The position numbers were made by a program, and so were the translations under genes. A stretch of DNA of 64,000 nucleotides from Pholiota molesta. Taxonomy: Eukaryota > Basidiomycota > Agaricomycetes > Agaricales > Strophariaceae. Shown one piece after another: positions 5,976-41,105 of this stretch (positions are counted from its first letter, which is position 1; each line of letters begins with the position of its first letter). The notes below the pieces were generated by a model. It had not been told where the DNA came from. It was given only the letters and a program-made list of their open reading frames with translations, and ran no database searches. The stretch covers positions 124,001-188,000 of the forward strand of contig JACGCK010000034.1 of the NCBI GenBank assembly GCA_014925825.1, read 5' to 3'.

Positions 5976-6434
5976 AGGTCGTAGATGTACCGCTGTCACC
6001 GTGCAGGTTTTGGGGATCAAGTATGTAGTCGCAATTGCACGTCCTGTTTTTTTTATCTGCGGTAAATGTATTGGCTACAAGTTGGCTACAAGCTTGTATA
6101 GGCTTGTATAGTGGTCGAAGCGTGACATGTAACTGGAAAATTAATTCTAGATCATCCACATGAGCGAAAGGAATGAGCTACTACCAGACCAACGCAAATG
6201 CTACCATCGCACAGGTTATTTGTTAAATAACTTTGGTTTCAGGCTTGGGATCCACAAGGCCTCAGGAATTAGCTCCTTTGGTGAAAGAGAAGTCACGCAT
6301 TGGACCCACAAGCAACCCACAAGGCCTCAGAGATCAAACACTTTTGATGAAAATGAACATTATCAACAGATCACCGGCGCCGTGACTTCGTTGTCAAGTC
6401 CATCCATTCCTTCTTCGCCATTATTCCTACAATC
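5976..6434. promoter_or_regulatory. 3' flank of copy 1 and promoter of DUF3632-like copy 2
   Basis: The 3' flank (GTACCGCTGTCACCGTGCAGG and on) is shared with other copies, so duplicated units include downstream sequence. From about 6,238 the conserved upstream block of this family begins (CAGGCTTGGGATCCACAAGG, ACCCACAAGGCCTCAG, ATCACCGGCGCCGTGACTT). Confidence 0.55.
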
Positions 6435-8346: not shown

Positions 8347-8614
8347 CTTGGGGGCAGGTATGATTGGTGTAAGCGAAGTCGTTTTGTTGAGCGTTGGTGA
8401 AACGGATTACGGATCATCTTTGTAACGCTGACGCCTGTTGTCTTCGCCGTTAGACACCGTCTCGACTCCGGTATATACTTCCCTTTGACATTTGGAGAAT
8501 ATAAATCTAAATGAAGCAGAATCCGATACGAAAATAAATGCATTTTAATGGTCATTACGAATGTATACATGAAACCAAGAATGAGTACGAGAAGCGGGCT
8601 ACCGCAACAATAAT

Positions 8615-12930: not shown

Positions 12931-14058
12931 ATGTCGACCACTACTGCTTTGAACTTTTCCTTCCCCGAATACACAGACGGACAGAAGAATTACCATCAGC
13001 ACACTCTTGACGACGAACATAAAGTCTTCTCCATTCTCAACGCATACCTCCAGCCCTCATCCGCGATATCTGCAACGACTGCTGCACAGAAGATCGACAA
13101 ACTTTATAAACCGAGTCCATCGCCTGTATTAGAAGACTATTTTGAATCCCTGTCGCATCTCTGGGAGCTTTTCGTATTTGTGATAGATCAAATCCCTTGG
13201 CAGCACCCATCCCAAGACAAAGCCGTCGCACTGATAAAAACCCTCCGCGACCTCCCCAATCCAGCGACGATTGCCAGCTATTGGGGCGATGGCACTGCGA
13301 AGCTCTGGGCTGATCTCCCAGCGCTTCCTCAGGTTCTGACGGACAGTCTCGAAACACACGGTAGATAACGAACTCCCTTTCGTACATGCATTACGATGAT
13401 GTTTTAATCATTCTTCGTTGGATAGGCATTGTCATAAACGACGATTCAGACAAAGCACTGCTGGAGGCGATTATTGTTCCATGTGAAAACAGCCCAGAAA
13501 AAGTATATTTTCAACGTGTTGCATAGGCTGTTCCAACGAAAAACTTCGGGAACAGCCTTGCAACCTGTTCACAATAGGCTGTTTCCAAAAGAAACAGCCA
13601 TTGCCTCCAGCAGTGAAGAGAAGCGATCGCGGATCCGTGATATCAACTTCCCGGCGTTCGCCGCACGGTTGACCATAGCGGGTGTTTCCGATGTCTCAAG
13701 ACTCGCTGTATATCGTATACGCAACGTCCTAGAGGTAGATCCCGACTTCTACCTCCCGGGCTATGACAGAGTGGGCCCGCATCTGGACACTGGCATCCCC
13801 GTGGCGAATGTGTGGATCTCCCTTGCCGGCAAGCTCATTTTCGGCTTTTGCAAAGTGAACGGAGAGGGCGCTGCGCGGAATGACATGGCTGCAGGAGAAT
13901 ATTGGACAGGAAGTGTCGGTTTTTCTGTCGAGCGATGGGAGTTCTGGAAGCAGAGATTGGATGAAGTGGCTGTAAACGACGAGGCGAGTGAGGACACCCG
14001 AGGTATTGCGAAGAAGATGAAGGAAATAATGGTTGCGGCCGAAGCTTGGAGCTCGTAG
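12931..14058 (+). CDS. DUF3632-like protein, copy 3, with transposon insertion
   Basis: Exon 1 is 12,931-13,360. The usual exon 2 start (G|GC after GGATAG near 13,421) leads into a 160 bp insertion (13,456-13,615) that brings a stop and a frameshift, so normal splicing gives a truncated protein. If the donor at 13,361 is instead joined to an AG at 13,590-13,591 inside the insertion, exon 2 becomes 13,592-14,058 and the frame is restored: 298 aa with ETAIASSS in place of the usual short acidic linker. The rest (INFPAFAARLTIAGV, VGPHLDTGIPVANVWI, VERWEFWKQRLDEVA) is intact and shows no decay, which favours a working rescue or a very recent insertion. Residues EAWSS replace the usual EA end. Confidence 0.6.
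13456..13615. mobile_element. CACTG-ended MITE (CACTA/EnSpm-like), 160 bp
   Basis: Ends are perfect 13 bp inverted repeats, CACTGCTGGAGGC and GCCTCCAGCAGTG. AAG stands on both sides (13,453-13,455 and 13,616-13,618), a 3 bp target duplication: DUF3632-like copy 5 has the unoccupied site GACAAAGAGAAGCG. The inside holds inverted copies of GGCTGTTCC/GGAACAGCC (13,526-13,534, 13,549-13,557) and of GGCTGTTTCC/GAAACAGCC (13,577-13,586, 13,591-13,599). CACTG/CACTA ends, 3 bp duplications and subterminal repeats are hallmarks of CACTA (EnSpm) transposons. Too short to encode a transposase, so non-autonomous. Confidence 0.9.
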
Positions 14059-19040: not shown

Positions 19041-21152
19041 ATGTCTACCGCTTCCAAACAGCTTCCGGTGCTTGTTGTTGGCGCAGGTCCTACGGGCCTC
19101 ACTACGGCATTGTATCTTGTTCAAAACGGCATTAATGTGCGCATTATTGAGCAATCCGTTCAATTGCACGCTGGGATTCGTGGAACGGCCATTCTCGTGC
19201 GTGTAATGATGATTATGAGCCTACACACTTGCTTACTGTATTATAGCCTCGAACTCAAGAGCTGCTCGCAATTCTCGGCGCCGAAAATGATCTCTTCAAG
19301 ATTGACACGGGCCCATTGCAGATGGCGGTATACGGACCAGATGGCAAAACCATCCTCAAGGCATTTGATTGGTCTGAGCAAGCAGAAGAGAGTCCAGCCA
19401 TCCCATTTGTAGGTTGAATATCGACATCATTCAACCCTTCTGTCGTGTTAATAAGTCTGAATTACAGAGGAAGACCGCTTCCGTTAGTCAAGCGCAGCTT
19501 GAAATCATCCTCCGCCAACATCTACAAGAATATGGATGCGAGGTAGAGATGGGAATGCGCCTCAACGGTATTTCTCAAGACGATTCTAAAGCGACTGCCA
19601 CCGTCGAAGTCGTGCAAAGCAAGAAAGAAGTTCTTATAGATTGTAGCTACATTGTGGCTGCAGACGGAGCGAAAGGTGAAAGATCCTTTGTCTTCCATCG
19701 TTTGCTGTTCTCATGCGTACTTCACCAGGTCGCTCCCGTCACCTGATTGGAGTCTCGTTCCTCGGAGAAACTAAAGAGGCTGATAGGATGTGGACTGCGA
19801 ACGTTGAAGTACCTGGATTTAGCAGGGAGGTGAGCATCTATTTTATTTATTGAACTACTGACTTGTAAAGTGCTAAACAACTACGACTAGTATTGGCATC
19901 GATGGGGCGACTTCGCTAAAGCTGCGTAAGACACACTGTCTCTATATGTTACACACATGCTCAATATATTGCAGAACTTCTTTGAAGCCCATATATCCTG
20001 CGCCGCTTTTCCATATGCAATCTTTGGGAGGGTCTCTCCCGAAGGATATACCCATGGATCTCGCAGGAACACAACAGTTGTTTAATTCTATCACAGGTCG
20101 GGATGACGTTAAATTGGAGACGGCGGAGTACATGAGCGAATGGAAGTAAGTTCTAGCTACTAGATCGATCTCGACATCAGGACGCGTTCCTAACATCGTA
20201 ATAGAGCCAACATAAGGATGTCCGACAAATTCTCCGTCGGACGTGTCTTCCTGGCGGGTGGTGGGTGCCGATTTATATACTACTGCGGATACATATTGAA
20301 CTACGTCTTAGATGTTGCTCATTGCCACTCTCCTACCGGCGGTCAAGGTACTAATACTGCAATGCAGGATGCTGTGAGTTCAATACGTCTCGAAAAATAC
20401 GAAGCTCTAACCGACCGTCGTAGCTTAATCTTGCATGGAAGTTAGCCTTGGTTGTGAACGGAAAGGCATCTTATGCGCTTCTCAAATCTTACGAAGCTGA
20501 GCGAATGCCCGTTGTGGCGGAGATGTTAAATTTATCCAACGCGCTCCATGCCAGAGCCTTTCCGCATATTCCAGCCACGGCGTTCGAGACGCCAGAAGCG
20601 AACAATACACAGCCCGATCCAATGCAACGCTCCCGAAAGCTCCTTCAGCTGGGCATAAATTACCGCTGGAGCAATATCATATACGATGAACGAAACGACA
20701 AGGAAGCGATCCAAGACGCGACTCCCTACGATCTCCTGGAAAACCAAATTCGCGCAGGCGACCGTGCTCCGTACATCGGAGGGCTCACGGGAGGTTCAGG
20801 CGAGACTACCAATCTATTCAGTCTTCTCCGCGATGCACCTTCCCACCTCGTCTTAATCTTCCCCTCTTCAGGGTCGTCCCCCATTGAGCAGCTATCAGCA
20901 ATTCAGTCGATCATCGATGCGGGCTTGATTCAGTTTGTTGTTATTCTCGGTAACAAATCCTCTGATAAACAGACTCCAGACAAAGGCGTCAGATATCTCG
21001 TGGACTCCCAGGATACCTCGCGTGCGTCCTACCACATCGATGCAAATCGGAGCACCTACGTCACTATCCGACCTGATGGAATCATAGGAGCTTTTACATT
21101 CGGTGTCAATGGAATCAAGGAATATTTTGTGAGAGTAGGGGTGACAGTCTAA
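19041..21152 (+). CDS. FAD-dependent aromatic monooxygenase 1 (class A)
   Basis: Nine exons: 19041-19196, 19247-19408, 19468-19675, 19729-19829, 19891-19925, 19975-20145, 20205-20260, 20312-20373, 20424-21152; 559 aa with every junction in frame. Class A flavin monooxygenase motifs are all present: VLVVGAGPTGLTTALYL (FAD GxGxxG, residues about 9-25), YIVAADGAKG (DG motif) and FLAGDVAHCHSPTGGQGTN (GD motif). The C-terminus (from about GDRAPYIGG to YVTIRPDGIIGAF) is the thioredoxin-like domain typical of the PgaE/RdmE and phenol-hydroxylase branch. Such enzymes use NAD(P)H and O2 to hydroxylate phenolic or polyketide aromatics. The ATG at 19,011 would add ten residues; 19,041 was chosen because it puts the FAD motif at the usual distance. 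No sign of decay. It heads a three-gene same-strand set with 24.1 and 28.6 kb. Confidence 0.9.
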
Positions 21153-22884
21153 ACGGCGATTCATGATTCCATGATATCAACACTTTAGCAACTTGAAACT
21201 TGTAGAAATTTATGGAATATATGCACATGTTTACTTCCGATTCTCTTCGTTATGGGAAACCAAAGAACGCACGTTTACATGCCAAGCGGGCAACTACCTT
21301 TTGGCGTGACCATGCGTCCGTGTGCGTGTCCAGTGGCTTGCACCAATTTGCACCGCTGGCCTGCCGCGGGCACACGCTTATGTGATTTAAGCTCCGATTA
21401 AAATGTAAAGTTCACATATCAAAAGCGCCGACTTTGAGGTAATATATAAACAGGGAAGAGGCTCATAATCCCCAATTTTTTTTCGCTGATATATAAACTA
21501 AGTATATTGAACAATGTGTCAAAATTAACCGTCTAAGACTTCGTGAAGGTATAGTGGCCAGGCCTTGGCCTCAAGTGTTGAATTTTCGGGTTATGTGACA
21601 ATCAAATGGTACGCCAACTTGAAGAGCGCGCGAAATCTGCATGGACACAGTTATCTGGTTAACAACATTGAAAATAAATTCTGGGTGAGGTATATATATT
21701 GAGAAAACTGCTTTTTCTGGGGCGGGATACCCTCGAAGTGGGAAATCTTGAAGAAGATTTAAATTTTACCGTACCGGCAACATACGGCTGGCAGTCGGGC
21801 CGTTCCCTGCGCGCCTGCTTTGATCAACCCTCTCCTCCTCTCACCCTCCATGGCTGGCTCTCGCCCTCAGCATCGAGCTCGTTGGTGTCAGGATTCTTTG
21901 GAAAATGGTACAAGGTCATCCGAGGCTTGTGTCATGGTGCTCAGACGAGGTATTTCACTTGGTAAAAGATCCTGACAATATCTTTGTTCGATCCAGGTTC
22001 GTTCTTTGTCACCTTTTATTGGGCACTTACTGACAGGATATGGATACATGGCTGCGCCGCCTGCGCCCTCTTCAACGACGAACGAGCAGCTACCTGTTTA
22101 CTGCCGGCTTCAACATCGCCTCCACCCTCCAATCTTACCGTGGGCACTGCAATGACGCAGGATCACTATGCTCGTTCGCCAGTTCATCTGTGGCAACCCT
22201 CTCCCGGGCCCCGGCGGCAACCAGTCGTTTTTCACCCTTTCTAAGTACCACCATTTTCGACGCCGCCACCATCCTAACCACGGACTTCCACCTCCGCCTT
22301 CGACACGGCTGATCCATGATGAACGAGTTTGGGGCTCGTTTGTCGGCTTCTGCATCTCGTGGCTAGCGCATCCCAGCTACTACGACGACCCCATTACACC
22401 CACTGCCGCCCTTCTCGCGACTGCCCCCACAGCGGCTCTGCTTCACTGTTTTGATGCTCAATATCACCAGCACCCGCTGCCGCCACCACCCTGTCCAAAG
22501 ACGGATGGACAAGTGATGGACGATGAATGTCGGACCAAGAACGACCACGACCGGCGGACGCGCCCGCGGCGGTCGACGAACAACAACGCATAACCACGAC
22601 CTGCGAAGCGCCACGGACTGCGAACGGTTCGTCGGCCTCTGCCCTGTCTGGCTAGCGCATCCCTGCTACGACGACGACGACTTGCGACCCCGCCCTTCCA
22701 GCTGCCGCCCTCATGCCCCATCCATCTCTTCCACTCAAAAAATAGCTGATATAACGATGATATTCACTAGCTCGTCAGAAAGGAGATGATAAATGGGCGA
22801 GCTCACGCTATATGGCATCAGTGGGAGCGCTCTGAAAATACTTTGTTTATCAAATACTTCTCTGGAGTAAGTATCGGCCAACAA
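21153..22884. other. Spacer with internal duplication
   Basis: No gene recognised. 22,300-22,460 and 22,600-22,730 are imperfect copies of each other (GTCGGCTTCTGCATCTCGTG against GTCGGCCTCTGCCCTGTCTG, both followed by GCTAGCGCATCCC and TACGACGAC). The longer open frames here are C/T-rich and not convincing. Confidence 0.4.
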
Positions 22885-23038
22885 TTGCTGATGCACGGAC
22901 GCACGCTGGCGTGCTGGCGTACACGTAGCATGCGTGCGCAAGCTTGGCATGCGTTTGCGCACGCTAGCGCGCGCTCTATAGCGCTGATACATCTAGCGTG
23001 TACGCTTGAAGCACGCCAATGCACGCTACTACACGTTT
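22885..23038. repeat. ACGC-rich repeat array, upstream of monooxygenase 2
   Basis: ACGC or its complement GCGT recurs every few bases across about 150 bases (GCACGGACGCACGCTGGCGT and on), very unlike the AT-rich flanks. The same kind of sequence occurs at 26,815-27,320, on the other side of monooxygenase 2. Confidence 0.8.
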
Positions 23039-24081
23039 AGATACCTGTCACTGATGATAATCCCAAGGCATTAGTGTTATTCAGCGTATTACAAATTGAC
23101 TATAACGTAAATTTATTTTCAAGGAAAGGATTGTAGTACGTTCGGCAATGAGCTCGACAATGGGCCGATAGAGTCCCAATTGAAGTTGGGTCACACGATC
23201 CATCTGAGAGAAGACGGTCAGATGTGAATCAATTTATGTACCAAAAACACGCACTATGGGCGCTACAATATGATAAAAAGCGGGATGGAAAGTAGCGGAA
23301 GAAATCTAATTAATCTGGCTTGCTCTTCGGACATGCCACAAGCATAATTGCATATTCCGGATGTGCATAAATATAAATATATTGATACTTCCACCTACCA
23401 CCTGAGAGTTTTGCACTTTGGAAACCCATCTCATCAAGTTAGATGCCCTGATGAATGCTCTCAAGACTGGATCAAAGCGTAGTAGATTTCATGGGAAGGT
23501 GATCCGTACTTTTATACCCTAGTTCTTGCCTGCGGCGAACGCGATGATTTATCACGGATGCGGAACTATAGAGATATAATCGACGCAATTTAATCAGGGC
23601 ATGGGAAATGTAGTATACTCGGCTCCTGCTTCTTAGATCGGTGTATACCACCCAGGGACGTCTGGGTTTGTCAGAACTCCAGGAGTTTGCGGGTTCTCTG
23701 ATAGAAATGTATGATTGCTCTATGCTAGCTATAGACAACTGATGGTAGGAGAATTCTTAGATCTTGGCTTGCTGATATTCAGCGGAAACGACCCACTACA
23801 CGCGATTGAATCTGTGCTGTGTGGGAGCGACATGTAAATAGCATTCTCGTCCGAGAAACACTGAACTCGTATTATGGTTTGAGTTTGAAACGTCTGATGG
23901 TACCAAAACCCCATGACAGAAGGCTTCGTAGTGCGCAAACAGAACACTGGTCTGGGCTCTGCAATAAATAACCCCCAAGTAACGAATAATTCTGTTTTAT
24001 TTTGGAATTTAAATAAGTACCTCAAATATCCCAAGTATACTTCACTGACTCATTCACATTTTACTGTGTCCCCAAGCATCG
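23039..24081. promoter_or_regulatory. AT-rich 5' flank of monooxygenase 2
   Basis: No coding pattern was seen on either strand. Contains the presumed promoter; GGAATTTAAATAAG near 24,003 is A/T-rich but no clear TATA box can be chosen. Confidence 0.3.
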
Positions 24082-26727
24082 ATGCTCCCAACTACTCATA
24101 GCAACGTTGATGTCCTTATCATTGGGGCAGGTCCATCTGGACTCATGGCTGGACTCATTCTGACGACAATGAATTTAAAAGTGAAGATAATCGATCGACG
24201 GTACGCTAGACTTTTAAGTATTACTTATTAAGATGTGGCTGACGAGTATTCATGCATCACTTAGTATGCCCAATGAGACTTCTGGGCAAGCAGACGGAAT
24301 TCAGCCTCGTATGCTTGAGATCTGGGAAAGCCTTGGCATTGGCAAGTCGTTACGCGAGAAGAGTGAACATGTGTATAGGATGGTAATTTCCCTCCTTAAC
24401 AATGACAACGACACCATTATCTGACATTATGAGATAGGTTACATATGTACCAAATGAGCGCAAAGATGGGATCAAGGCAAGTGAGCAGACTTGCATACGA
24501 ATATTGGTTAATTCGGATTATAGCATAAGTCTCAAGGGCTGAATATTCCTGTCCCTTCTGCAAGGTACCAATATGAGGTTTGATGTTTCAGCGGCATATA
24601 AACAGTATCCTTTTTAACCACTCAGAGATAGGTACTAGCACGTATAGATATCATTGAGAGCATTCTTGGAGCCCAGCTGCTCAAGAATGGTGTTTCTCCG
24701 GACTATCCAGTTGTGCCTTCTTCAATGGCGATTTCCAAGTCTCCAGATGAAGAGTATCCTATTCAGGTGGGTGTCATGTCGTGTCGCTTCTCAAATAATA
24801 CCTCATTACTTACTCCTTATAACCAGGTGAACGTCTCATGGCTCGACGAAGATATCTTGAAAAGAAACAAATTATCTCAAGAGTCCCGCAGCGACCCTGC
24901 CCTTATCGAAGGAATCATCAAGCGCAAAGATACGATTTCAACTAAGTTTGTTATTGGATGCGACGGTAATATGCCGCTTATAAATTTCCTTCATGTTCGC
25001 CATTGATCAATACTATCGATATCATAGGCGGCAAATCGTGGACTAGGAAGCAGCTTCATATTGCCATGGAGGGCGAACAGACAGGTTAACTTCTACGTGT
25101 CTGCCCGATGTGCCTCTTCTTAATTGCATTCTACGTAGATCTCAAGTGGGGCGTCATCGACTTCACGCCCTTGACTAACTTTCCAACGCCACGAGCCAAG
25201 AACATAATACAATCTCCTCTTGCTGGTGCTCTTGGGGTCAGTATGATAATCAAACCAAAGCGTGATGTATTAAATCTCAGCACTCACGCGTACACATTAC
25301 AGTATTTACCAAGACCCAATGGTACCGCACGGGTCTATGTCATGCTTGGGGAAGGAAAGCAGGCAGATGATCAGAACGTAGATGCGATGGATACCATTTC
25401 CAAGGCAAGTTAAATGTGTTACACGGCTCAGAATTCGTCGATTCAAGTAGCCATCAACTGTATTTTAGGTTCTTCGGAGAGGGTTTGAACCCTACAAGAT
25501 GGAAATCCAAGATCCCACATGGTGCAGCATCTTCCAAGGTGTTCATTTTGATATTTTGCATCACGAATGGAAGCTAACGGCGGCGCCACTTTAGTCAGCC
25601 AACGCGTCGCAGAACGATTCTCTGGCCATGGTCGGGTATTCATTGCAGGAGATGCATGTACGTTCGATTATATGTATGAATTCAGTTGCTAATCGACTTC
25701 AGGCCATACGCATTCACCGAAAGCAGGACAAGGTGCAAATGCCTCGATGTCTGACACCTTCAACTTAGGTATTTCTCGTATTTTCAGTTCATCAATCATA
25801 AATTCATGTCATCTAAGCCTGGAAAATTGGATACGTAGCCAATGGCTGGGCCAAACAGAACATTTTGGACACTTACGAAACAGAGAGGAAACCTTTTAGC
25901 GAGGAATTGATCAAGCTCGATCAGCAAATCTTCAAATTATTTTCTGGACAGACTGTTGCTCCTCAGGAGTATATGGAGTGAGTAGCATTGCCCTCTCTAC
26001 GCTTGAACCTTATGCTGTATACTTACGAGTATAGTCTATGGCACCGGCAGATTATGTTTGCGTCGTATGTCGATCTTATGTGTACATGTGTCACACTGCT
26101 TAACTTTTTCTAATTCCAGTGGAATTGGCTTGCGGTATTCGTCATCTCTTATCAATACATCGGGCCAATCACTCGCAGGAAAGCTGTTTATTGGGGAACG
26201 GCTTCCATCAATGAAAATTACTCGCTCTGACGACTGGCGTCCGCTGAACTTGCAAGATATTGCACCTTTCGATGGAAAATTCAGACTATTTGTTCTCCCA
26301 GGGGACATATCAACTCGTAGCGGAATCGAAACGTTGCACAATTTTGGCACGGAATTCATATCAGTGCTCAAAAATGTTCCTAGCCTTAACAAGCTCATTG
26401 AAGTATATGTACTCATTGACAATAAACCATCGCTCGCTATCGAGGCATTAGAACTGCCATTAGCCATAATCCATGGTCGTTACGAGAGGTGCGCATATCT
26501 TTGACTTTCTTTTTCGTCATAGCTCAATTAGTTGCAGGCTGTTTTTTACCCAGGGAGAAGATGGCAAAAGCCTATACGGCGAACTTGCACTCAAGCCATC
26601 AGCTATTCTCAATAGGCCAGATAACCACGTTGCGGCTTTGTCTTCTCTTGACAAGAAAGGTGTCCGTGATATCGAATCATACTTTATGGAAATCTTACCA
26701 GAGTTTACAAATTCCTTGTCTGCTTAA
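24082..26727 (+). CDS. FAD-dependent phenol 2-monooxygenase-like protein 2
   Basis: Many-exon gene from MLPTTHSNVDVLIIGAGPSG (FAD GxGxxG) to LPEFTNSLSA at 26,727. Motifs in order: SGQADGIQPRMLEIWESLG; STKFVIGCDG joined by splicing to GGKSWTRKQLHIAMEGEQT (DG motif region); FIAGDACHTHSPKAGQGANA (GD motif) followed by NLAWKIGYV and YETERKPFSEELIK; SSSLINTSGQSLAGKLFIGE; and a thioredoxin-like C-terminal domain ending LFFTQGEDGKSLYGELALKP. This is the phenol 2-monooxygenase branch of class A flavoproteins, which ortho-hydroxylate phenols with NADPH and O2. Two introns need GC donors (AAG|GCAAGT near 24,475 and 25,405). Exons around 24,430-24,720 are the least sure. No stop or frameshift is forced, so probably functional. 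Flanked on both sides by ACGC-rich arrays. Confidence 0.85.
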
Positions 26728-26814
26728 CTCAGAGTACGGACTCCGGATTGATGTAAATCATTTGAATGTTTCTTAACAAATTGGAATGGAAATTAAACCC
26801 TGAAGGCGGATGTG

Positions 26815-27320
26815 CATCGTGTCAGGAGATTGGTTTTTGCGTGACCCAGCGTGGCGCATGGCGCGCACGCTTGTCCACGCTTACGCACGCTGGTCGCTTA
26901 CCTTGCGTCCCCTTGAGCTCATGCACGCCGAATGTACGCCAGACGCACGCCGGACGCGCTAGAGTGTATCGGCGTGCACGTTGCGCGGCAAGCGTAGGCT
27001 TAGCACGCGATTTCTCACGCTCGTCCACGCCAGTACATCCGGCGTGCACGCTCGATGCACGCTTATTCACGCCGACACAATGGACGAACAACGCTATGCT
27101 CAACGTGTCATAACGTCGTAGCCAGATGATAAGGCCGACTGTCAGCAGCTGAGGCGCCCATAGGCGATTTGAGGCCTATGTCTCACAGAACACTGTGCGC
27201 CGTCTGCGCACGTCGACCCACGCCCGACTCCCGCCGACCCACGCCTGACATCCCAGCATGCACGCTTACGCACGCCGGTGCACGTCGACGCTGCGGCGGT
27301 GCCACGCTGGGCCACGCAAA
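26815..27320. repeat. ACGC-rich repeat array ending in an A-run
   Basis: About 500 bases with ACGC/GCGTGC words every 5-12 bases, interrupted at about 27,110-27,190, ending with 11 A residues at 27,318-27,328. Resembles 22,885-23,038 in composition and word use but not as a clean tandem unit. Confidence 0.75.
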
Positions 27321-28603
27321 AAAAAAAACCAAGTTAGGCTGGGTTGGGTGACAGGATATCCGTCACACTTCATGTCATCGTTCGCGGAAGTGTCCCGAAG
27401 ACAGTTTTCGGGACAGTTAACAGTTACGCGAACAGTTCACCGGGTGTCTTGAATGCATGCACAACCTTATCCAAGCTAGATGGGCTTGAGAAGGGCCCAG
27501 TAATTTTTGATTGATTTCCAATTATAATGATATGGGTTCTTAAAGATGGAAGGTGTTGCCAGAACGGTGGGAATGACGCCCATTCATGTTGGTTATTTTC
27601 AGGTCCCCAAATTCGGAGTGCATTGTGAGAAATTCCGAATGACCGTGACTTACGTCATTCCCATTTTGGGACCCGTTCCTAGTACCCGCTGCTGTATCCA
27701 TGCCACTTATTCTTGCTCCTCTCACTTCCGACGTGGTCCATTGACCGGATCCATCAAAAATCAAAGTAGAAGTGCAGGTGTGAATGTACGGCGTACGCGC
27801 CAAGGACGCGCGCTAGAATGATGGACGCCGAAGATGTTTGTCCTTGTCCTTAGAGCCACCGTGAGTGAACAGAGCTGTACCTTCACTGGTGTGAAGTCAA
27901 GCGACATCAAGAAAGGCGTTCAGACTCAGAAGGTCAATTCCCAGAAGCTGCTCGAAGTTTTTCCTGAGTTTCTCACAATCTTGATGCGCTGAAATAGAAT
28001 CTCGTCAAGAGTCCACGTCACGCACAGGCTGGATGGATTAGATCATGGCTTAGGTCTATATTGATCCGCGTGTCGAATCAGTATTTTGTTAACATGGCAC
28101 AAGTTATGTCATAAGATCGCACCTTTCTACGAGATTCTACATATCTTGGGGCGACTGTGGAAGTAAAATGTAGCTATTTAAAATATACATACGAGTACGA
28201 GGAGGAGGATTACCCCGATCCGAATACTTATAGATGAATCACTTCCCTGTTCTGAATCGGTAGTTCATTTTGTTATCTTGGTTGTCCATTATAGCTACAC
28301 TACACACATGGAGGGAAAAAGCAGCCGAAAGTATAATTTAGTGCTATATCTCTACCTTCTGATATTCTGATAAGGCATGGCCATCATTAAATCTGCTCAG
28401 CGTTTCGGGGGCATGTGTTTCGCGGGCATGTATGACTTATAAATAATCCTTTAATCGTATTGATAGCAGATCCAAGTCATACGCAGAATATCTTGATTGA
28501 TTTTTTATCATTTACAGGCTTAGACATTTATCGTAAAAATCGTATAAGAGAAGTATCTACCTTGGATGTTAGACGTGATTCATTTACTACTTCATAAGTA
28601 AAC
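27321..28603. other. Spacer before the prenyltransferase gene
   Basis: No gene recognised. 27,392-27,414 can form a perfect 8 bp hairpin, GTCCCGAA with TTCGGGAC around a 7 base loop. The rest is AT-rich and includes the promoter of the UbiA gene. Confidence 0.4.
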
Positions 28604-29996
28604 ATGTCTATTAGCATTCATTCTCTTCTACTTATCAGTCGTCCATGGGTAAGTTTTCTTGACTAAACAACTCTAACTTCATGTGATTTAACGTATTTTT
28701 TCGCCATAGATTGAACTCGCTCGCTTGAATAAGCCAGCAGGAGCCCTCCTCATCATATGGCCGTATGGTTAGTCGTGTACAACTTGCTTTGTAATTGCAA
28801 ATTCTTATCATATAATACCAGTATGGGGCCTGTCCATGGCGGCAGCTGCTGCCAAACTTCCGGTGCTATCCTTCCTGAAGTATCTTATTGTCGGATCTAT
28901 TTGGTTTCTATTTGTGCGAAGGTCAGCTCTGCTTTTATTTGGTATTCTACGTATTCTTACACCTATACAGTATGTACTCGCTATATATGCTTAGGAACAG
29001 AGTATTGAGACCAGCAATATTAGGCACTGGATGTATATGGAATGACATTATCGATAGAAATATCGATCGACTTGTCGGCAAGTATTCATCACGATTCACA
29101 TAGTTGGCGTCTATTGCTTACTCTCTGGTAGAGCGTACGAAACATCGCCCGTTAGCCACTGGGCGTACCTCAGTTGTGGGAGCATTAATATTCTTATGCT
29201 TGCATCTAATGGTTCTCTCCTCCCTGCTTGCCCTCGGAAATAGGCAAATGTGCGTTTCTTTTGTCGCATTGAATTTTCGAAAATGTCATTTGACACTGAA
29301 ACGCTACTATATAGACGTGTTATTGGCCTTGTGACACTTTACCCTTTAGCTGGAGGCTACCCGTTTATCAAGCGTGTGTCATATTGGCCACAAGCTTGGC
29401 TCGGTATGTTCTCTTACTCCCGATGCCATATTTCCCGGTGCGATTTTTATCAATACTCACAGGAGTCGCATTTAACACTGGAACTTTCATGTCCTGGGCA
29501 TGTGTTGCTGGATCTATAACGCAGAGTAGCATTCATCTCATTGTTGCAACTTGGTTGTGAGTGCTCGACAGTTTCATAGGATCCATATTCATGTTTTCCC
29601 ATAGCTGGACAATGTGGTACGGTAAGGTTAGCTGTCCGATTTGTCAGAATAATATTGAGGAATTGGGTAGACACAATCTACGGAAGTCAAGACAAGAAAG
29701 ACGACATAAATATCGGTGTCAAGTCTACCGCATTGCTGTTCAAGTCTACAAAAAACACTAAACAGTTCCTGGCCTTTCACGCTTTTATGTTTATTGGGTT
29801 CCTCACAACGGCCGGCCTCTTAAACCAGCAAAGTGCTCCATATTTCATCGGCGTGTGTATTTTAGGTGTACATTTGGCGTTCCAATTCTGGCATTTAGAT
29901 TTGGATTCTCCGAAATCCTGCTTGGCCGTGGTAAGCCTGTTCAACAACGTGGTAAACTGGATTAATAAATCGAAATTCCTATTAGTTCAGCAATAG
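28604..29996 (+). CDS. UbiA-family aromatic prenyltransferase
   Basis: Starts MSISIHSLLLISRPW, then after an intron IELARLNKPAGALLIIWPYV, WGLSMAAAAAKLPVLSFLKY. The two Asp-rich motifs that bind Mg-diphosphate are intact: GCIWNDIIDRNIDRLVERTK (NDxxDxxxD) and DTIYGSQDKKDDINIGVKST (DxxYxxxDxxxD). HRPLATG and YPFIKRVSYWPQAWLG are typical of 4-hydroxybenzoate polyprenyltransferases and the fungal meroterpenoid enzymes related to them. Hydrophobic stretches fit about eight membrane helices; the protein ends LFNNVVNWINKSKFLLVQQ. One intron uses a GC donor (GTCG|GCAAGT near 29,074). It would attach an isoprenoid chain to a phenolic acid or similar aromatic in a membrane. A ubiquinone COQ2 role is possible, but the tandem setting with two aromatic hydroxylases and lack of a mitochondrial presequence favour secondary metabolism. 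Confidence 0.88.
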
Positions 29997-30357
29997 CGGA
30001 TATATAATAGGGCCTATAATTGCTATTGGCTCTACGACTGACTATTTCTATCGTCAATTATACCTGTAGACCTCACAGGTGCTTTAAGCCTGACGCATGG
30101 GTTGTATCATTCCTTATAGTGGACGTTAAACTTCGAGAAGTGTAGAGAAACTTTGTCAGAGCCGGCCCAGTGGTACTCCTCCTAGCAAATTCTACTCGTA
30201 TAGTTTCTCAGCGCAACAAAATCTCTTCAAGAGTGATTCGTTATAAGCCAGGAAAATACCTGACGCGAACGTGTAAGCTGCCTGCCGTACTTGCCGAACA
30301 CATTAAAAGTCTTGACAGAAAGGCCAGCGCAGCGAACAGGCTAGCGCAGGAAATCCA

Positions 30358-31440
30358 AACTCTGCCAAACTTCGCTTTGGGCAGCGTGTGTATGACACTG
30401 TTCCAGTTGTAGCCAAGGACTGAGTCCTGAGTGCTTAGACTGAGATATGCTTGCTGGCAGGAAGCGCATACGGAGAAGGAAGAACGACTAGTCAATGGGG
30501 ACAAATGAACAGAAACATGATGAACTAGCTCAAGTGCCGTGAGCCCGAAGTACGTGCAGCGAGTGCTGAGGAAAAATGCGTGCATGCACTCAAGGGCAAA
30601 ATAGCGTAACAGGAGCTACACACGGCAAGTTCTGTATCGTCCTTCAACTGTATATTATCGAAACTCAATCTGTCAACCATTCTTACCACGGTTCCGCGGT
30701 GATACCATCATCCTGAATAGCACTCATCATTAGAGCAAGTAACGATTCTTCAAACAAAAATTGGGCGCTCAAAAGAACAATAAACCAACTTTTCTCGCAA
30801 GCCACAGCTGCGGTAGATATCAAACATCTCAGTTACGGAGTGATGCAAAGAACTCTTTGAACAGAATACCTATTATTGATTCGGGACAGAAGTGTTGGGT
30901 TTGATGAGGGAGGGACGTCTCTTCTTTTCAATCGGATGACTACAACAAGTACCGCAAGGGCTGCTTATTACGGCCCTTTCAAACTTTCCGTGAGAGAAGA
31001 TCGTGACAGGAGGAAACAGCAGGTGGTCTGATTACAGGGGCTTCTCCGGCAAACCCGAATTACTCAAGAAGATACGTAGATTAGACCAATTTTAAACTAT
31101 CACCCCTCCCCAATTGAGAAGCTACGATGCCAAGACTTGCCCGTGTCAATGTTGTTCGCAGCTTCCATAGACAATTCCCAGGTTTACATGATCCATGCGC
31201 ACGTCGGCGTCCTCGTCGGGTGAATATATCTGCCCACGCACTGACGCTAGCATCTGCAGCTAAGCAGGAGATATTTGTGGTGCGGTTCAGTAATGGTCAT
31301 TACAATCGCGCCCGTATTTTTAAATTTGTGAAGGAAGTTGTTTATCGCATGATATACACCGCGGGCAGTGCTGAATGTCCATCCATTGTCGAATAGCCAA
31401 GTTACTAATACCTGGATAATCCATACTCAATAACTCAATA
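30358..31440. repeat. Segmental duplication B, copy 1 (3' flank of peroxidase)
   Basis: Colinear with 39,951-41,060, starting at CTGCCAAACTTCGCTTTGGG and continuing into the 3' end of the minus-strand peroxidase copies. No intact gene inside. Short frames such as MPRLARVNVVRSFHRQFPGL occur in both copies but have diverged by indels, so are probably not coding. Confidence 0.85.
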
Positions 31441-32480
31441 CCCACCGACGCCGCGCGCAACTCCTGCGTCCATTCTCATTGATTACCACACCCGCACCAC
31501 CATCCCACTGCCCGCCACCAACACCGCCAGGCCCTGCAGCAACCCACCCACCGCCAGCCTCCCGGCCCCAGACGCCTGGCCCCCATTCCCCGCCCCCGCC
31601 GTCGCACTCGCACTCGCACCCGCCCCAGCCGTCGACACCGTCGCCACCGTCGCGCTCGCCACCGCGCCCACCGGCAGCGGGCGCGAAAGGTCCACCGCGT
31701 GCCGCACCCCATCGACCTCGACCGCGATGTCCACCTTCGGGCGCCCCGCGGTGCTGGTCGGCGTGGTGAAGCGCGCGGTGTAGAGGGTGTAGTTTAGGAG
31801 CGCGGGCGGGAATAGCGCGGCGAGGGTGTAGTTTTGGGAACTGGCGACGGGCACGAGGGGCGCGGTGGTGGCGAACGGTACGCTCAGCGCGGTGCGGAAG
31901 GTGTTGTCGTACGCCTGCACAGTCGCCGCCGTCGGCGTTCGAATAGCCAAGTTACTAATACCTGAATAATCCATACTCAATAACTCAATCCCCCACCGAC
32001 GCCGCGCACGCAGCTCCCGCGCCCATGCCCATCGATTACCACACCCGCATCGCCCAACCCACCACCATCCCACTGCCCACCACTAACACCGCCAGCCCCT
32101 GCAGCAACCCACCCACAGCCAGTCTCCCAGCCCCCATTTCCCGCCGCCGCCGTCGCACTCGCACTCGCACTCGCCCCAGCCGTCGACACCGCCGCTGTCG
32201 GCACCCCGCCACCGTCGTGCTCGCCCCAACGCCCACCGCCGCCCACCGCGTGCCGCACGCCATCGACCTCAACCACGATGTCCCGTCGGGCGCCCCGCGG
32301 TCGCGTTCGGCGTGGTGAAGCGCGCTGTGTAGAGTGCGTACCCGAAGAGCGTGAGTGGGAGCGCGGCGAGAATGTAGTTCGTGGAACTGGCGACGGGCAC
32401 GAGGGGCGCGGCGGTGGCGAACGGCGCGCTCGGCGCGGCGCGGAAGGCGTTGTCGTACGCCTGGACCGTCAAAAGTGTCG
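31391..32480. repeat. Tandem duplication of the peroxidase 3' exon
   Basis: Two direct copies of about 545 bases, 31,391-31,940 and 31,941-32,480, each starting GAATAGCCAAGTTACTAATA. Each holds the last coding exon and the GPI-like tail. The 41 kb peroxidase copy has a single such unit. Confidence 0.85.
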
Positions 32481-33600
32481 GCGGCGAGTTGCTGAGGATC
32501 TATTTCGCAAGAAAAAGAAGTGTAAGCAGCACATTCCTTCTTCTACTGCACGCAGCCTCGTGCGCAGTAAGGCAGAATCGGTTAAAGCAGAGAACCAGAG
32601 CACATACCCCAACAACGACATCGAACACCACCGCCCCCGCCCCAGCACTCCCGCCCATCAGCGGCAAAACATCAGCGCATCATCGACCGCATACCCCGCT
32701 CCGCCATTATCCTGCACCACCCCCGCGCCGGGCGCGCTCAGCGCCTCGAACCAGAATCGCCCCACCCCGCGCCCGGGGATCACCGGCACCGCCAGCTCAT
32801 ACTCGACGAAGGACGTCCGCAGCACCTTCGCCACGGGGGAGACGGGCACGTCGTTGAACTGCGTTGGGGGGCAAGAACGAGGTGAAGGATGCGGTGTTGG
32901 AGGGGAAGTTCGGTGTGGGCCCACGCGCGTCGCACCAGTACATCGCGATGGAGCGCGGCGTGGTGTTGGCGATCTCGTCCGCGGCGGTGACCGCGACCGC
33001 GACCTGGAGAGATGAAATGTTAGTGGGCGTGTGCGAGAGGGTGGATACGCGGACGAGGACGTCGAAGAGGAGCTGGCCATCTTGAATCGTGAACTGCGCG
33101 GAGGAGACCTTGAATGGGAGGAGGTTGATCGCGTCCGTGAGCTGCAAAGTGACATTGCGCAGGACGGTGTTGATCATGCGCTCGAGCAGCCTAACGCAGG
33201 TCGCGTTGAACGCCGCTGGCGAATTCATACTATTGGTATTATACGTTGCATTAGCATTATGACACAATGAACAAGTGTGAGAGAGACGCGGAGTGCTGGA
33301 GAGCCGAAGCGGCCTGGGGAGAGGGCGTCAATGCTGCCGCCGCGGAAGCGGAGGATGGTTCCCGCGCAGGAGGCGACGCCGAGGGCGTATTACGGCTCTG
33401 GCCATTGGTACGCCGGCGTAGTCGCGAAGAGTGCACTGTGGAGGGAGAAATCCGACAAGACGGGGGAAGCGAGTCCGCGCATTGTATTGGAAGACCATAG
33501 AGATGCACCCAGCACAAACAAGGACAAGACCAGTAGCAACGCAGCCCAGAACGGCAGTGCCATCCAAGAACAAGCAAAAATGCGAACCATCTGGATACTT
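31483..33600 (-). pseudogene. Heme peroxidase pseudogene, copy 1
   Basis: Minus strand. Exon 1 is cut short after LHSALFATTPAYQWPEP and runs through a stop directly into exon 4 sequence (GVASCAGTILRFRGG), so the distal-His exon is gone. Exon 4 is itself truncated after SPGRFGS, removing the proximal His. Exons from NSPAAFNATCVRLLERMINT onward remain, but a C6 run near 32,866-32,871 shifts the frame (expected QFNDVPVSPVAKVLRTSFVE). The C-terminus (Ala/Ser-rich, then GGLLQGLAVLVAGSGMVVRV W) looks like a GPI-anchor signal. The 3' exon is present twice (31,483-31,940 and 32,027-32,480). Relatives of the best copy at 62.5 kb show the family; this one cannot make an active enzyme. Confidence 0.85.
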
Positions 33601-35384: not shown

Positions 35385-36790
35385 GCAGCCTGACGCCATC
35401 CAAAACAATCTTCCAATCGAGGAATAGAAACAGTAAGCGATTGAACACATTTGGCATTTCGAACCCTAAACGTGTTGCTTAGCATCAGCGCCATCGAACC
35501 AAATACTGTCGTCAAAGTCGTCAAGGAAGTGCCGGAAGAGGACAAGGACGCCCTCCTCTCGATGAAATTCTCAACCTCCACGATTTCGAGGTAACGTTCT
35601 TCCTCTCGATATTCGGCTAGTTGCTCAGGCGGTCCATTAGGCTGTGGCGAAAGCTGTTCTTCCAGCCAAAGCTTGGGCATACTACTCTTCTGCCTCAAGA
35701 GCGGCCGGCGAGCATGGTGTTATTCAGATGGTGATCTTTTGCGACCTTTGTTTATGTTCTCGACACGAAAATTTCTAACTTCACTCCAACAAAAGATACC
35801 CAATTTGGCCTCATGCGTGCTCCTTCGACGAGATCGCAGATGCCGCTCACCCCGGCCAGCCTCTCTTCCTCCAATTGTAAGCAATCATCCTTATAGTTCT
35901 CTAGCAATGCGCTGACGACTGGAACTTGTCACTGCTAGGTATGTGAACCGCGACAGAGAGAGCACAAAGAAATACGTCGAACACGCCGAGAAATGGGGCG
36001 TGAAGGCTCTCTTGATCGCTGTCGGTGCCCCTCAGCTTGGTCGTCGCGATAAGGATATGATGGTGCGGGCGCGAAGGTCCAAGAAGGCCAATTGGTCGTC
36101 AAGAAGGATCGAAGTGTTGCCAGAGCCATTAGGGTAAGCACAAGAACGCCGAATGTATCTCTTGAACGTGCGTGCTGATGTTACTTCTAGTCCTTCATCG
36201 ATCCTAGTCTCTCATGGAAAGACATTCCTTGGTTCCGAAGCATCAGTGATCACAAACAGAATGTTACCACCCACTCACTGTCTTGCAAACCCTGATATAC
36301 GACGCTACAGTGCACATCATCCTCAAGGGTGTCGCCACTCCCGAAGACGCCATCCTGGCCTACGAAGCAGGATGACAAGGTATCGTGCTGAGCAATCACG
36401 GTGGCCGCCAGCTCGACACGAGTCGCTCTGGTATCGAGAATTTCATCGACATCGTCGCCGCACTCAAGACCAAAGGGCCGTGGCCGAACCCCAAAATCGC
36501 CGTATCCGTCGATGGCGGCGTACGTGCTCAAAGCCATTGCCCTCGGCGCGTCGGCGGCCGGCGTTGGGCGTTGGGCGCGGGTTCCTGTACGCGTTTTCGA
36601 GCTACGGACAGGAGGGCGTCGAGCGTGCTTTTGAGATCTTGCGCGGTGAGTTTGCGATGAACATGCGGTTGATTGGTGCGCGCACGATCAGCGAGATGGT
36701 ACTTGAGATGGTCGATGCCAGTGCGCTTCGTGCGCATGCTACGTTGACTCTTGCTGATAACCTTTACAACACAAGTTGTAATTGGCATTC
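35385..36790 (+). pseudogene. L-lactate dehydrogenase (cytochrome b2) pseudogene
   Basis: Plus-strand relative of the 8.6-10.8 kb gene, from DAIQNNLPIEE at about 35,394 to the NLYNT region near 36,770. The first cytochrome b5 exons are absent. Lesions: TGA at 36,373-36,375 replaces the Cys codon in EAGCQGIVLSNHGG; a short deletion removes RRASD after VDGGV; several frameshifts occur near 36,070-36,120 and 36,560. Pieces such as LSNHGGRQLDTSRSGIENFI survive well, so inactivation is recent. It sits directly before segmental duplication A copy 2. Confidence 0.88.
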
Positions 36791-36856
36791 TTTTTGGTCC
36801 TCCTTTGGTCATGACTCATTCAACGACCCTAATTTTTATTGCCAAGTTCAACCGAA

Positions 36857-39735
36857 CTAATGCGCCGCGAAGAGAGGCTTGGCCATAAACTTCATGCCTG
36901 AAGCTGAACTCTACGGCTTTCAACACTAGTACGCCATTGTTCCAATGTTTAGTTCTTGTTCATACGTACTAACACTAGACATTCCGATACATTGTGTCGA
37001 CGATAAGTTGGATCTCGATGCTTTACTAAAATATGGGAGGATATTGTCTTTCGCTATTCGCTCTCTACCATCTTTTGCAAACTAATTTCAACGGGATCGG
37101 AGGCTGAAAAACTGTAAGGCTTGCTGCTGAGCGTTGGCCGGGTCTCATTGTCGCCCCGGGCTGAAGACTGAACAATCGTGCGCTCGTTGCTGCGCTAAAT
37201 TGGTGAGGATAAGGGTAAGTGTTATGATTTGAAATTTAGCTAGCTTGGGATACGAACTAAAATGCTGGTTGAAAACTTCATGGAGTCATTTGCAAGTCGA
37301 ACGGATACAATTTCTTCGTCTTTTCCTACTCCTTTAATTGCGTTTCGGGTGTTCAACCTGATAAAGTAATAAGCAAAAAACGTTTAATGGGCGCCTTATA
37401 ATAGTTCATTGAACATGACTACTCACGTTGCAAGAACGGAGTTCGTATAAACTAAAAAACCAAGGGTTGAGTGTTGAGCGCCGCATACCAAAAACACATT
37501 GAGCCACGCCTACCTTTACTGATCGATACGTGGAATGCCACCCAAGCCATTGAGTCGGGCTTTATTTCATACTATTGTACATATTAGATACCCATAAATC
37601 GAACCTGTCAATGAGTGAAATCTCACAGCAATCAAGCAAAAAAGTTGAAGAAACCTTTATATCAAAGTCAGTTGCTATGTCTTCAATGCTCAACGGGCAT
37701 GCTTTACAGTGGACCTACGTTGTAATAGCACCCCGATTGACTGCAAAGACTATCAATCTATTGAGCATTGTGTTCGTCCTAATAAACAACATAGATGAGC
37801 ATCCATGCGTCTGACTTCTCAGGTTACCGGTATTTTTCATTCGGATACACACCTGCTGACCTCAGAGCGACCTCTATGAAGGTAGAAGCAGAGAGCTGCG
37901 GTAATCAGAAAATCCGCACATGTTTCGAGCGACTTATTAACCGCTACCAATATCTGTCGTCAAATAAAGGGTGGGTGTAAGATTCATGGAGTATGCGGAA
38001 GAAAATTTTATATTAACCTTTATATAGGGAAGGAGAGCTGAACTCCAAAACTTGAATGTAAATCTAAGAACACATCATGAAGTTAGCTCGTTATAGACAA
38101 CGCAGCAAGTAGGAGCATACAATTTAACGACAATGGCTTTGAATAGGGTTAATCAGAACACAAGCGCCAATCATTTTTAAGGAGCTTACCAAGTCCAGCT
38201 CCTAGAGTATTAAAATCGTCTGCTTTAGTGATTGCAGAGAGAGAAGGGGCGGCTATCGACTTACCGAATGCAGCTAGGCTGAAGAAAGTCTAGAGTGATG
38301 TCAGTAATCAATGTCGTTAATAATCTCTGATCCCCGGCACGTACAATAACTCCAGGTAAGAACCTTTTGCGACTGGTCACTGGAATGCAGAGACTTGGAT
38401 TAGAAAAACAGGGGTCATAAGTTTGTCAACAGCAACGTACATTCCCAAATGCGCACTACAAAGAACCTAATACATGACGAAGTTTCAGAGTTTGATCATG
38501 GCGAATATCTGGAAATTCATGAACTGACCCTTGCATAAACAACTTGATCGTATACTAGTGACTAGTCAGCGGGTTCTAGGGGCCAGAGTCATGAATGAAC
38601 CATACCGCTATGAGAAGTTCAGACTATTTTGATGATCAATGAATATTACAGAAGACGCAAGGAAATTTCACGAACCTGTATGCTCCTGAAAGAGAAATGT
38701 TTAGTATACTATTGGGAGATACCGAAAACCACACATACCAGACTTGAATCAGAAGCATTTCCATATTTCCGAAGGTAACAATGAGATAATGGTATAATCC
38801 GTGTGTTTCGAAGATAATCGTCAAAGTGTCCAAAATACTGTAACAATGTGAGCATATACCGTGTTAAATTTGCCTAAACTTGGCATACAATAGTGACAAA
38901 ACCTGGACTGTTTTCAACCACGATATTTAATATTTAGGGTTAAGAGAAGCAACCTACCAGTAATTTGAATGTCGGAGGATCTTTAGGGTACTGGTTGAAG
39001 TAGTATATCGTCTGAGATACTAAGATTCCATATAGCCTGTAATCGATCAGAGTCTGGGACATCGTGAGAGGATTGAGGGCACATACGACGCAGCTACAAT
39101 TACTCCAATCAGATATGCACCATAAGTTGAACCAAGATTTACTACCGGTGGCAGCTGAGGTGTAAGAGAGCTACTAGACGACATGACTCAGGTGCGGATG
39201 CGAGTTACATCCCTGCCTTGTATTTAACTACTCTCCGCTCTACCTCAGCGATCCCATCTGCTCTCACGTTTAAACTGAACCACAAATATCAGATAGGTTT
39301 CATCAATCAGGCTTCGAAGGTTGCCGCTGCATATGCTGCTCATCAAACTTACTTCATTCCAAAGGGGTATTGCGGTGTAAAAGATGTCTACACTTGATCC
39401 ACAATCCAGTGCTCTTTGTGGGCGCTTTAATCGTTTCATTAAACGCTCTCTCCACGGCGATCAATGCATCTAGAAAGAATACTCAATACTGATATGTTCT
39501 ATATAAATCTCTTATGTGCTTGCATTAACTTCGGTGGGAATATCACTCGTTGAGCCATTGCTTGAGCAATTCCAGGAACATAGAGTAACTACCGGTGCTA
39601 TCTATTCTCTAAAGTACTGTTCTCAGTGCTAGTGATGCTTGTGCGCCTTTACCTCGGGTAGGTGAAGCTGCTAATTTTGGTGTTCATCATTGCTTGGAAT
39701 GATCAGATTTACCCATTTTCGAAGTGTGGAAACTG
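36857..39735. repeat. Segmental duplication A, copy 2
   Basis: Partner of 15,893-18,795, same strand and order. It contains the second DUF6534 gene. It ends where 18,795 would lead into the monooxygenase cassette; here about 215 unrelated bases follow before duplication B starts at 39,951. Confidence 0.9.
37240..39184 (-). CDS. DUF6534 multi-pass membrane protein, copy 2
   Basis: Same exon pattern as copy 1. Start MSSSSSLTPQLPPVVNLGST then YGAYLIGVIVAAS; LYGILVSQTIYYFNQYPKDP; LDTLTIIFETHGLYHYLIVT; end VYTNSVLAT-type splice into LNTRNAIKGVGKDEEIVSVR and stop at 37,240, earlier than in copy 1, giving a shorter tail. The coding exons have changed less than the introns in the parts compared by eye, which hints at constraint. 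The same middle region is unresolved as in copy 1. Confidence 0.7.
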
Positions 39736-41060: not shown

Positions 41061-41105
41061 AACCACCGACACCGCACACGCAACTCCTGCGCACATCTTC
41101 ATCGA

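Follow-up and report, generated by a model that had tools for sequence, protein, structure and literature searches.

Fungal gene clusters that combine a UbiA-family prenyltransferase with flavin monooxygenases are already known, and characterised UbiA enzymes of fungi act on aromatic acceptors such as hydroquinone and 4-hydroxybenzoate. The present analysis concerns a 64,000-nucleotide stretch of the genome of Pholiota molesta (Agaricales, Agaricineae, Strophariaceae), hereafter the window, in which two genes for flavin adenine dinucleotide (FAD) monooxygenases, FMO1 and FMO2, are followed by a gene for a UbiA-family protein, here called UbiA. Both the trio and the clade of its prenyltransferase are undescribed in the literature examined, and a literature search with little coverage of subscription journals gave nothing on UbiA clusters in Mycena or on prenylated hydroquinones of Pholiota or Gymnopilus.

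In the clavilactone pathway of Ampulloclitocybe clavipes, ClaS takes hydroquinone as its aromatic acceptor together with geranyl diphosphate, and hydroquinone is also prenylated by LaPT3 (PMC12790560). The pleurotin enzyme HGRIS_000139 of Hohenbuehelia grisea is a farnesyl-4-hydroxybenzoate synthase, which farnesylates 4-hydroxybenzoate, and no UbiA gene is reported among the predicted clusters of that genome (PMC11574748). In the vibralactone system of Boreostereum vibrans, VibP1 and VibP2 act on 4-hydroxybenzoate and come from different scaffolds, and VibO is the flavoprotein (PMC10257657). The aty cluster of an ascomycete, which is connected to asperpentyn, contains the UbiA enzyme AtyB and the VibMO1-like FAD monooxygenase AtyG, and further has a phenylalanine ammonia-lyase, a P450 and reductases (PMC12356543). 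Among hydroxylases, TvMNX3 of Trametes versicolor (structure 8r2u) is a hydroquinone 2-hydroxylase (PMC12915361 and the PDB title). Prenylated aromatics of mushrooms are often missed by cluster predictors, as exemplified by the pleurotin UbiA (PMC11574748) and by the scaffolds of VibP1 and VibP2 (PMC10257657). A small cassette without a scaffold enzyme, seemingly kept across Mycena, Gymnopilus and Pholiota, would offer a direct handle, with three genes and a phylogenetic signature leading toward a product.

Integrity and linkage of the three genes

FMO1, FMO2 and UbiA follow one another on the plus strand with complete motifs, and the spliced models and a motif check bear out the preliminary description on this point. 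The FMO1 model has the same length as the annotated P. molesta protein P0241, with 100% identity over 100%, and the FMO2 and UbiA models equal P0121 and P0001 letter for letter; these three proteins are the window's own annotation and not independent relatives. The agreement for FMO2 includes an intron at 25237-25302, and two other features of this gene, a pair of GC-AG introns, are common to the second haplotype. The end of UbiA had earlier been placed at 29996 through a wrong last acceptor, 73 bases short of the end given in Table 1. The second haplotype is represented by contig C592, which aligns with the region at 91-96% in rearranged form and retains all three coding sequences without gap or stop. 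Between the window and C592, the ratio of nonsynonymous to synonymous substitution rates (dN/dS, Nei-Gojobori method, NG86) is 0.139 for FMO1, 0.129 for FMO2 and 0.142 for UbiA, and third positions account for 47 of 72, 31 of 45 and 21 of 33 haplotype differences, respectively. The three genes are intact and under purifying selection.

Linkage in relatives was assessed from protein listings by a proxy, the equal size of the contigs that bear two of the proteins within a species. The underlying searches comprised the best 120 of 5705 (UbiA), 5225 (FMO2) and 4457 (FMO1) matches, with about 8000 candidates scored in each. UbiA and FMO2 clade members lie on equal-sized contigs in all eight species that could be compared, namely the window, Gymnopilus junonius, Mycena sanguinolenta, M. 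vulgaris, M. galericulata, M. polygramma, M. capillaripes and M. galopus. The same holds for UbiA and FMO1 in 7 of 9 species (exceptions M. vulgaris and M. filopes), for FMO2 and FMO1 in 6 of 8 (exceptions M. vulgaris and M. venus), and for all three in six species, the window and five others. When the window is left out, the counts become 7/7, 6/8 and 5/7. In contrast, paralogues outside the clades gave 0/6, 0/5, 0/5 and 0/5; these control rows were assigned first by identity and then checked by quick trees, in which the Shimodaira-Hasegawa-like approximate likelihood ratio test (SH-aLRT) gave 100 for UbiA, 100 for FMO2 and 86 for FMO1. The strongest cases are a 32,402-base Gymnopilus contig with all three proteins and a 14,943-base contig of Mycena sp. 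CBHHK59/15 with UbiA and FMO1. The high co-occurrence of clade members on contigs, set against zero in the controls, indicates a conserved but patchy three-gene cassette, which is well supported by the equal-contig-size proxy. The lack of a conserved neighbourhood in relatives, which the preliminary description had named as evidence against its proposal, is therefore not what this proxy revealed.

It could be argued that the three genes are neighbours without a common pathway, with two aromatic-degrading hydroxylases of lignin or plant phenol catabolism standing beside a secondary prenyltransferase. The genome does contain several other group A flavoproteins, TvMNX3, the nearest solved relative of FMO2, works in aromatic catabolism (PMC12915361), and FMO1 is also found apart from the UbiA clade. 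Nevertheless, chance neighbourhood of this kind is rather unlikely in view of the pairing of UbiA with FMO2 (8/8) and with FMO1 (7/9), which the family paralogues do not repeat in any of the four controls. The trio is more probably a biosynthetic cassette of a Pholiota-type mushroom, likely inherited or passed as a unit with its Gymnopilus and Mycena relatives, which combines prenylation by UbiA with ring hydroxylation by the FMOs. The cassette itself can be proposed with fairly high confidence, its chemistry with low confidence.

Within the best 120 matches of each search, the UbiA and FMO2 clades come only from Mycena, G. junonius and P. molesta, with one environmental source in addition for UbiA, and Pholiota conissans, Hypholoma, Galerina and Hebeloma yielded only other proteins of the FMO2 family and no cassette-clade members. 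In the FMO1 tree, the Pholiota and Gymnopilus proteins nest among Marasmiineae rows, and forcing the 25 Marasmiineae rows together was rejected (approximately unbiased test, p-AU 0.0298) for a group that was defined after the tree was seen. The trees of UbiA and FMO2 place the same pair as sister to Mycena and not within it, so loss elsewhere may account for the pattern as an alternative to lateral transfer. In a far-reaching version of the cassette, possible but doubtful, a compact UbiA-FMO1-FMO2 cluster found widely among Mycena species would encode an undescribed prenyl-(hydroxy)hydroquinone pathway. The whole cluster would have been transferred laterally to the Pholiota/Gymnopilus lineage from a Mycena-like (Marasmiineae) mushroom, and its UbiA gene would have, like much of the clade, a non-canonical splice end at the intron that precedes the diphosphate-binding motif. 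If true, a fungal cluster would have moved between suborders.

The prenyltransferase and its third intron

UbiA reaches 150.8 bits on Pfam PF01040 (gathering cut-off 34.2), a score that, like the Pfam scores of FMO1 and FMO2 below, was computed on the preliminary gene models. The protein contains the NDxxDxxxD (N74, D75, D78, D82), YxxxK (Y140, K144) and DxxxD (D199, D203) motifs. Its AlphaFold model, built with 33 sequences, has a mean predicted local distance difference test score (pLDDT) of 93.9, and UbiA-family structures rank first when the model is searched with Foldseek (4od4, template modelling score 0.73/0.80). By score, motifs and predicted membrane fold it can be assigned to the UbiA family, and prenyl transfer to an aromatic acceptor is predicted.

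A tree of 55 rows (51 of the 120 listed matches and four stitched UbiA pieces of the own genome) places the window protein in a 17-row clade with support 100/100 and a long stem of 0.93. Besides Pholiota and G. junonius, the clade contains 14 rows belonging to 12 Mycena species and a single environmental row, and both ClaS and HGRIS_000139 fall outside it. The same set of 17 rows was recovered with 100 SH-aLRT in a second quick tree that had COQ2 as its sole outgroup.

According to another explanation, UbiA would be an extra COQ2 serving ubiquinone synthesis, and the two flavoproteins would be the ring hydroxylases of that pathway. The best NCBIfam match of UbiA is indeed 4-hydroxybenzoate octaprenyltransferase, and an arginine discussed below is retained, but its 257.5 bits on this bacterial model (TIGR01474) stay under the equivalog cut-off of 275.45. 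In contrast, among 31 PF01040 profile matches in the own genome, counted exon by exon, a gene present on C146 and C402 reaches 323.2 bits on TIGR01474 in its C146 copy, stitched from tblastn pieces, and can be taken as the genome's COQ2. This COQ2 groups with the bacterial outgroup, and the window protein stands off the COQ2 branch at 97/84, a value to be read with caution since two outgroup branches are long; it stands off again when COQ2 alone serves as outgroup. Furthermore, FMO1 and FMO2 score far under the cut-offs of UbiH/COQ6-type models. The TIGR01474 score, both trees and the separate COQ2 elsewhere in the genome rule out the window protein as COQ2, and a role of the trio in ubiquinone synthesis is highly improbable. 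Grouping with COQ2 as the only such gene of the genome had been named beforehand as fatal to the cassette, and neither part of it was found.

Further UbiA paralogues are present on C597/C183 and on C489/C136. The latter two loci hold tandem paralogue pairs, and no FMO1 or FMO2 match occurs in the loci examined. A single-frame UbiA-family gene on C604 (188.1 bits) has a sequence that resembles heme O synthase (COX10).

Arg67 of UbiA aligns with Arg43 of ApUbiA, with a numbering offset of 19 counted by hand. In ApUbiA this residue lies near the carboxyl group of bound 4-hydroxybenzoate, and the same paper doubts that site (PMC11047366). ClaS and HGRIS_000139 have histidine at the equivalent position.

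The third intron of UbiA is unusual. The annotated junction reads FVR-STGCIWND, and in both haplotypes the DNA permits this junction only with GT..GG or, shifted by one base, GG..AG. A canonical in-frame acceptor ends at 29000 in both haplotypes; its use would insert eight residues (seven in C592), which in the structure model would fall in transmembrane helix 2 (49-77), after Arg67 and ahead of the NDxxD motif. Among the 17 clade proteins, 7 have the arginine directly at this junction, and the other 10 show other letters and seem to be mis-spliced or to lack sequence. One clade protein, P0010 (302 residues), reads LLRGAGCIWND and comes from a 1,111-base contig, which is too short for such introns, so P0010 is probably a spliced transcript. 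The trouble at this junction in many clade members suggests that much of the UbiA clade shares an old splice end of a non-canonical type.

The same intron could also mean that the UbiA gene is decaying, having lost its canonical acceptor and with it the ability to give a correct protein. In neither haplotype can canonical splice ends produce the conserved junction in frame, and the canonical alternative would burden a membrane helix with the extra residues. Decay is nonetheless quite unlikely, given the low dN/dS of 0.142, the absence of any frame shift or stop between the haplotypes, the conserved junction of the annotated protein and the recurrence of trouble at the same site in many clade members, which points to an old shared oddity.

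The flavin monooxygenases and the proposed pathway

Both flavoproteins carry all of the GxGxxG, DG and GD motifs, which we take to be the signatures of group A flavin monooxygenases. They read GAGPTG, DGAKG and GDVAHCHSP in FMO1, and GAGPSG, CDGG and GDACHTHSP in FMO2.

FMO1 matches FAD_binding_3 with 225.7 bits, and its AlphaFold model has a pLDDT of 86.8. Foldseek ranks RslO9, PieE and GrhO5 first, followed by 2-hydroxybiphenyl 3-monooxygenase (rank 14), TvMNX3 (21) and VibO (32), a ranking that points to no particular substrate. In a tree of 44 of the 120 listed matches, Pholiota and Gymnopilus group at 100/99 and are sister to 19 Mycenaceae rows at 95/91, while Hymenopellis and other Mycena rows fall outside the clade. 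Among the matches listed, this clade is broader than those of UbiA and FMO2, since it includes Favolaschia, Roridomyces and more Mycena. FMO1 is the looser member of the trio: Mycenaceae without a listed UbiA-clade protein possess it, and in two of nine species it lies on another contig.

FMO2 matches FAD_binding_3 with 209.3 bits and Phe_hydrox_dim with 76.3 bits (cut-off 24.9), in keeping with phenol and hydroquinone hydroxylases that have a thioredoxin-like C-terminal domain. Its best solved matches are TvMNX3 (340.5 bits), yeast phenol hydroxylase 1pn0 (300.2), 3-hydroxybenzoate hydroxylase (194.1) and VibO (168.3). By motif and alignment, FMO2 keeps the equivalents of phenol hydroxylase Asp54, Arg281 and Tyr289. 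A tree of 40 of the 120 listed matches places it in a clade of Pholiota, Gymnopilus and nine Mycena rows (100/100), in which the Arg/Tyr pair occurs in all 11 members and the Asp54 equivalent in 9, with glycine in P0128 and truncation in P0131. The next relatives among the matches listed are Boletales and Polyporales proteins at no more than 44% identity. P. molesta also has P0235, which is 62.1% identical to TvMNX3 and sits in a different clade from FMO2; TvMNX3 itself (P0208) was outside the tree rows.

At the position of phenol hydroxylase Arg266, all 11 members of the FMO2 clade have lysine, where VibO has Phe265. A leucine at this site enlarges the pocket of TvMNX4 (PMC12915361). The lysine of FMO2 argues for a small ring substrate and thus perhaps for a step before prenylation. 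This bears on a vibralactone-like explanation, in which UbiA would make 3-prenyl-4-hydroxybenzoate and FMO2 would expand the ring as VibO does. The parallel is real in that VibP1 and VibP2 belong to the UbiA enzymes, and VibO, a flavoprotein resembling phenol hydroxylase (PMC10257657), has a recognisable match to FMO2. It is very unlikely to extend to the reaction, however: TvMNX3 and yeast phenol hydroxylase both score above VibO, lysine replaces Phe265, and the VibO pathway requires a carboxylic acid reductase, none of which was found among the 30 open reading frames (ORFs) scanned with Pfam. VibO-like chemistry of FMO2 is accordingly disfavoured by the weaker match and by the lysine.

In the cassette as preferred here, membrane-bound UbiA would use an isoprenoid diphosphate to prenylate a phenol or phenolic acid supplied by primary metabolism, beside a hydroxyl group, with 4-hydroxybenzoate or hydroquinone as the likeliest acceptor. 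FMO2 would hydroxylate the ring next to a hydroxyl group, in analogy to the action of TvMNX3 on hydroquinone, and could act either ahead of prenylation or after it; FMO1 would add a further ring oxygen, possibly on an ortho-prenylated phenol. A prenylated polyhydroxybenzene or quinone would result. Genes, selection, families, clades and equal contig sizes are observed, and we infer from them the shared pathway, all substrates, the order of steps and the product. The preliminary description had proposed a pathway that hydroxylates and prenylates a phenol. This idea gains from a UbiA that is not COQ2, from the neighbourhood conserved by proxy, from ClaS as the closest characterised UbiA among the matches listed and from an FMO2 family that includes fungal phenol and hydroquinone hydroxylases; a close match to clavilactone did not emerge, ClaS being outside the clade, and FMO2 proved nearer to TvMNX3 than to VibO.

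Several points weigh against the cassette and its chemistry. Equal contig size is a proxy for linkage only and is little informative on contigs of 9.48 and 6.21 Mb. Two species, M. vulgaris and M. filopes, carry the FMO1-clade protein on another contig; in M. venus, FMO1 and FMO2 sit on separate contigs and no UbiA-clade protein is listed, and FMO1-clade proteins of, for example, Favolaschia, M. pura and M. crocata also have no listed UbiA-clade partner. As to function, intron 3 of UbiA may be mis-spliced, the binding role of ApUbiA Arg43 is disputed in its own source paper (PMC11047366), and HGRIS_000139 accepts 4-hydroxybenzoate even with histidine at that site (PMC11574748). In FMO2, one clade member, P0128, has glycine at the Asp54 site, and the lysine would favour a small ring substrate, at odds with a prenylated one and with a VibO-like step.

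Remainder of the window and comparison with described systems

The Pfam scan of the window covered 30 of 509 ORFs of at least 60 amino acids, and the regions at 15.5-19 kb and 37-45 kb were read by eye. Within this non-exhaustive scope, the earlier statement that the window holds no scaffold enzyme is consistent with the results. A flavin mononucleotide (FMN)-dependent dehydrogenase was considered as a cassette partner and rejected, the fuller copy being 9 kb upstream and the downstream copy partial, with only the last 50 profile positions matched; both pieces align with a single stretch of C592 at about 82-85%. Four places on the plus strand score above the Pfam cut-off for DUF3632, a local family of unknown function, and an ORF of similar layout gave no Pfam match. 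Three G+C-rich stretches contain long ORFs of low entropy on the two strands; the first two of these stretches align with C592 in several places at 73-83% and are thus probably repeats. On C358, a further FMO1 copy with split matches is accompanied by the first FMO2 exon, perhaps in a redundant haplotig.

Table 1. Features of the window and of related loci (window numbering unless a contig is named)
Feature	Position	Strand	Remarks
Window	C268:124001-188000		C268 has 347,520 bases; genome 65.6 Mb, 625 contigs
FMO1	19041-21152	+	group A FAD monooxygenase (pentachlorophenol 4-monooxygenase / RdmE / HbpA-like), 9 exons, 559 amino acids
FMO1 exons	19041-19196, 19247-19408, 19468-19675, 19729-19829, 19891-19925, 19975-20145, 20205-20260, 20312-20373, 20424-21152	+	
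Spacer FMO1/FMO2	21153-24081		one ORF scanned (22156-22590), no domain
FMO2	24082-26727	+	group A FAD monooxygenase with phenol-hydroxylase C-terminal domain, 16 exons, 602 amino acids
Spacer FMO2/UbiA	26728-28603		
UbiA	28604-30069	+	UbiA-family aromatic prenyltransferase (predicted), 10 exons, 305 amino acids
UbiA intron 3	28922-29024	+	no canonical GT-AG solution found for the conserved Arg-Ser/Gly-x-Gly-Cys junction
FMN-dependent dehydrogenase piece	8602-9597	-	225.8 bits
FMN-dependent dehydrogenase piece	36138-36857	+	37.9 bits
DUF3632 match	4948-5972	+	
DUF3632 match	13438-14055	+	
DUF3632 match	45857-46875	+	
DUF3632 match	49491-49949	+	
ORF, DUF3632-like layout	6151-6687		
G+C-rich stretch	31409-33015		
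G+C-rich stretch	41041-41857		
G+C-rich stretch	53891-55718		
FMO1 copy and first FMO2 exon	C358:20365-25519		
UbiA paralogue pair	C489:200000-213000		
UbiA paralogue pair	C136:38000-56000		
UbiA-family gene, COX10-like	C604:189873-190655		

Compared with mitochondrial COQ2, the window UbiA has the Pfam family and motifs in common, but it is a separate gene on a different branch. ClaS is the closest characterised UbiA among the matches listed, with 49% identity over 94% and the same motifs, and it differs in its place outside the cassette clade and in having histidine instead of arginine at the ApUbiA Arg43 site. With ClaS outside the clade, the window UbiA does not qualify as the ClaS orthologue of a clavilactone cluster. 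From the aty cluster, the phenylalanine ammonia-lyase, P450 and reductases have no counterpart among the window ORFs scanned with Pfam. The vibralactone system resembles the P. molesta trio in combining UbiA enzymes with a phenol-hydroxylase-like flavoprotein, whereas FMO2 is nearer to TvMNX3 and is without Phe265. TvMNX3 in turn has the same domains as FMO2 and keeps the Asp, the Arg/Tyr pair and a basic pocket residue, but the two are only 35.5% identical (566 columns), and P0235 is the closer P. molesta relative of TvMNX3, in another clade. HGRIS_000139 (P0045) is, like the window UbiA, a basidiomycete UbiA outside COQ2, and the two are 47% identical; it has other Mycena proteins as its neighbours in the tree and carries histidine at the Arg43 site. 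Finally, HGRIS_000139 lies outside the predicted clusters of its genome, whereas the UbiA gene of P. molesta adjoins two flavoprotein genes.

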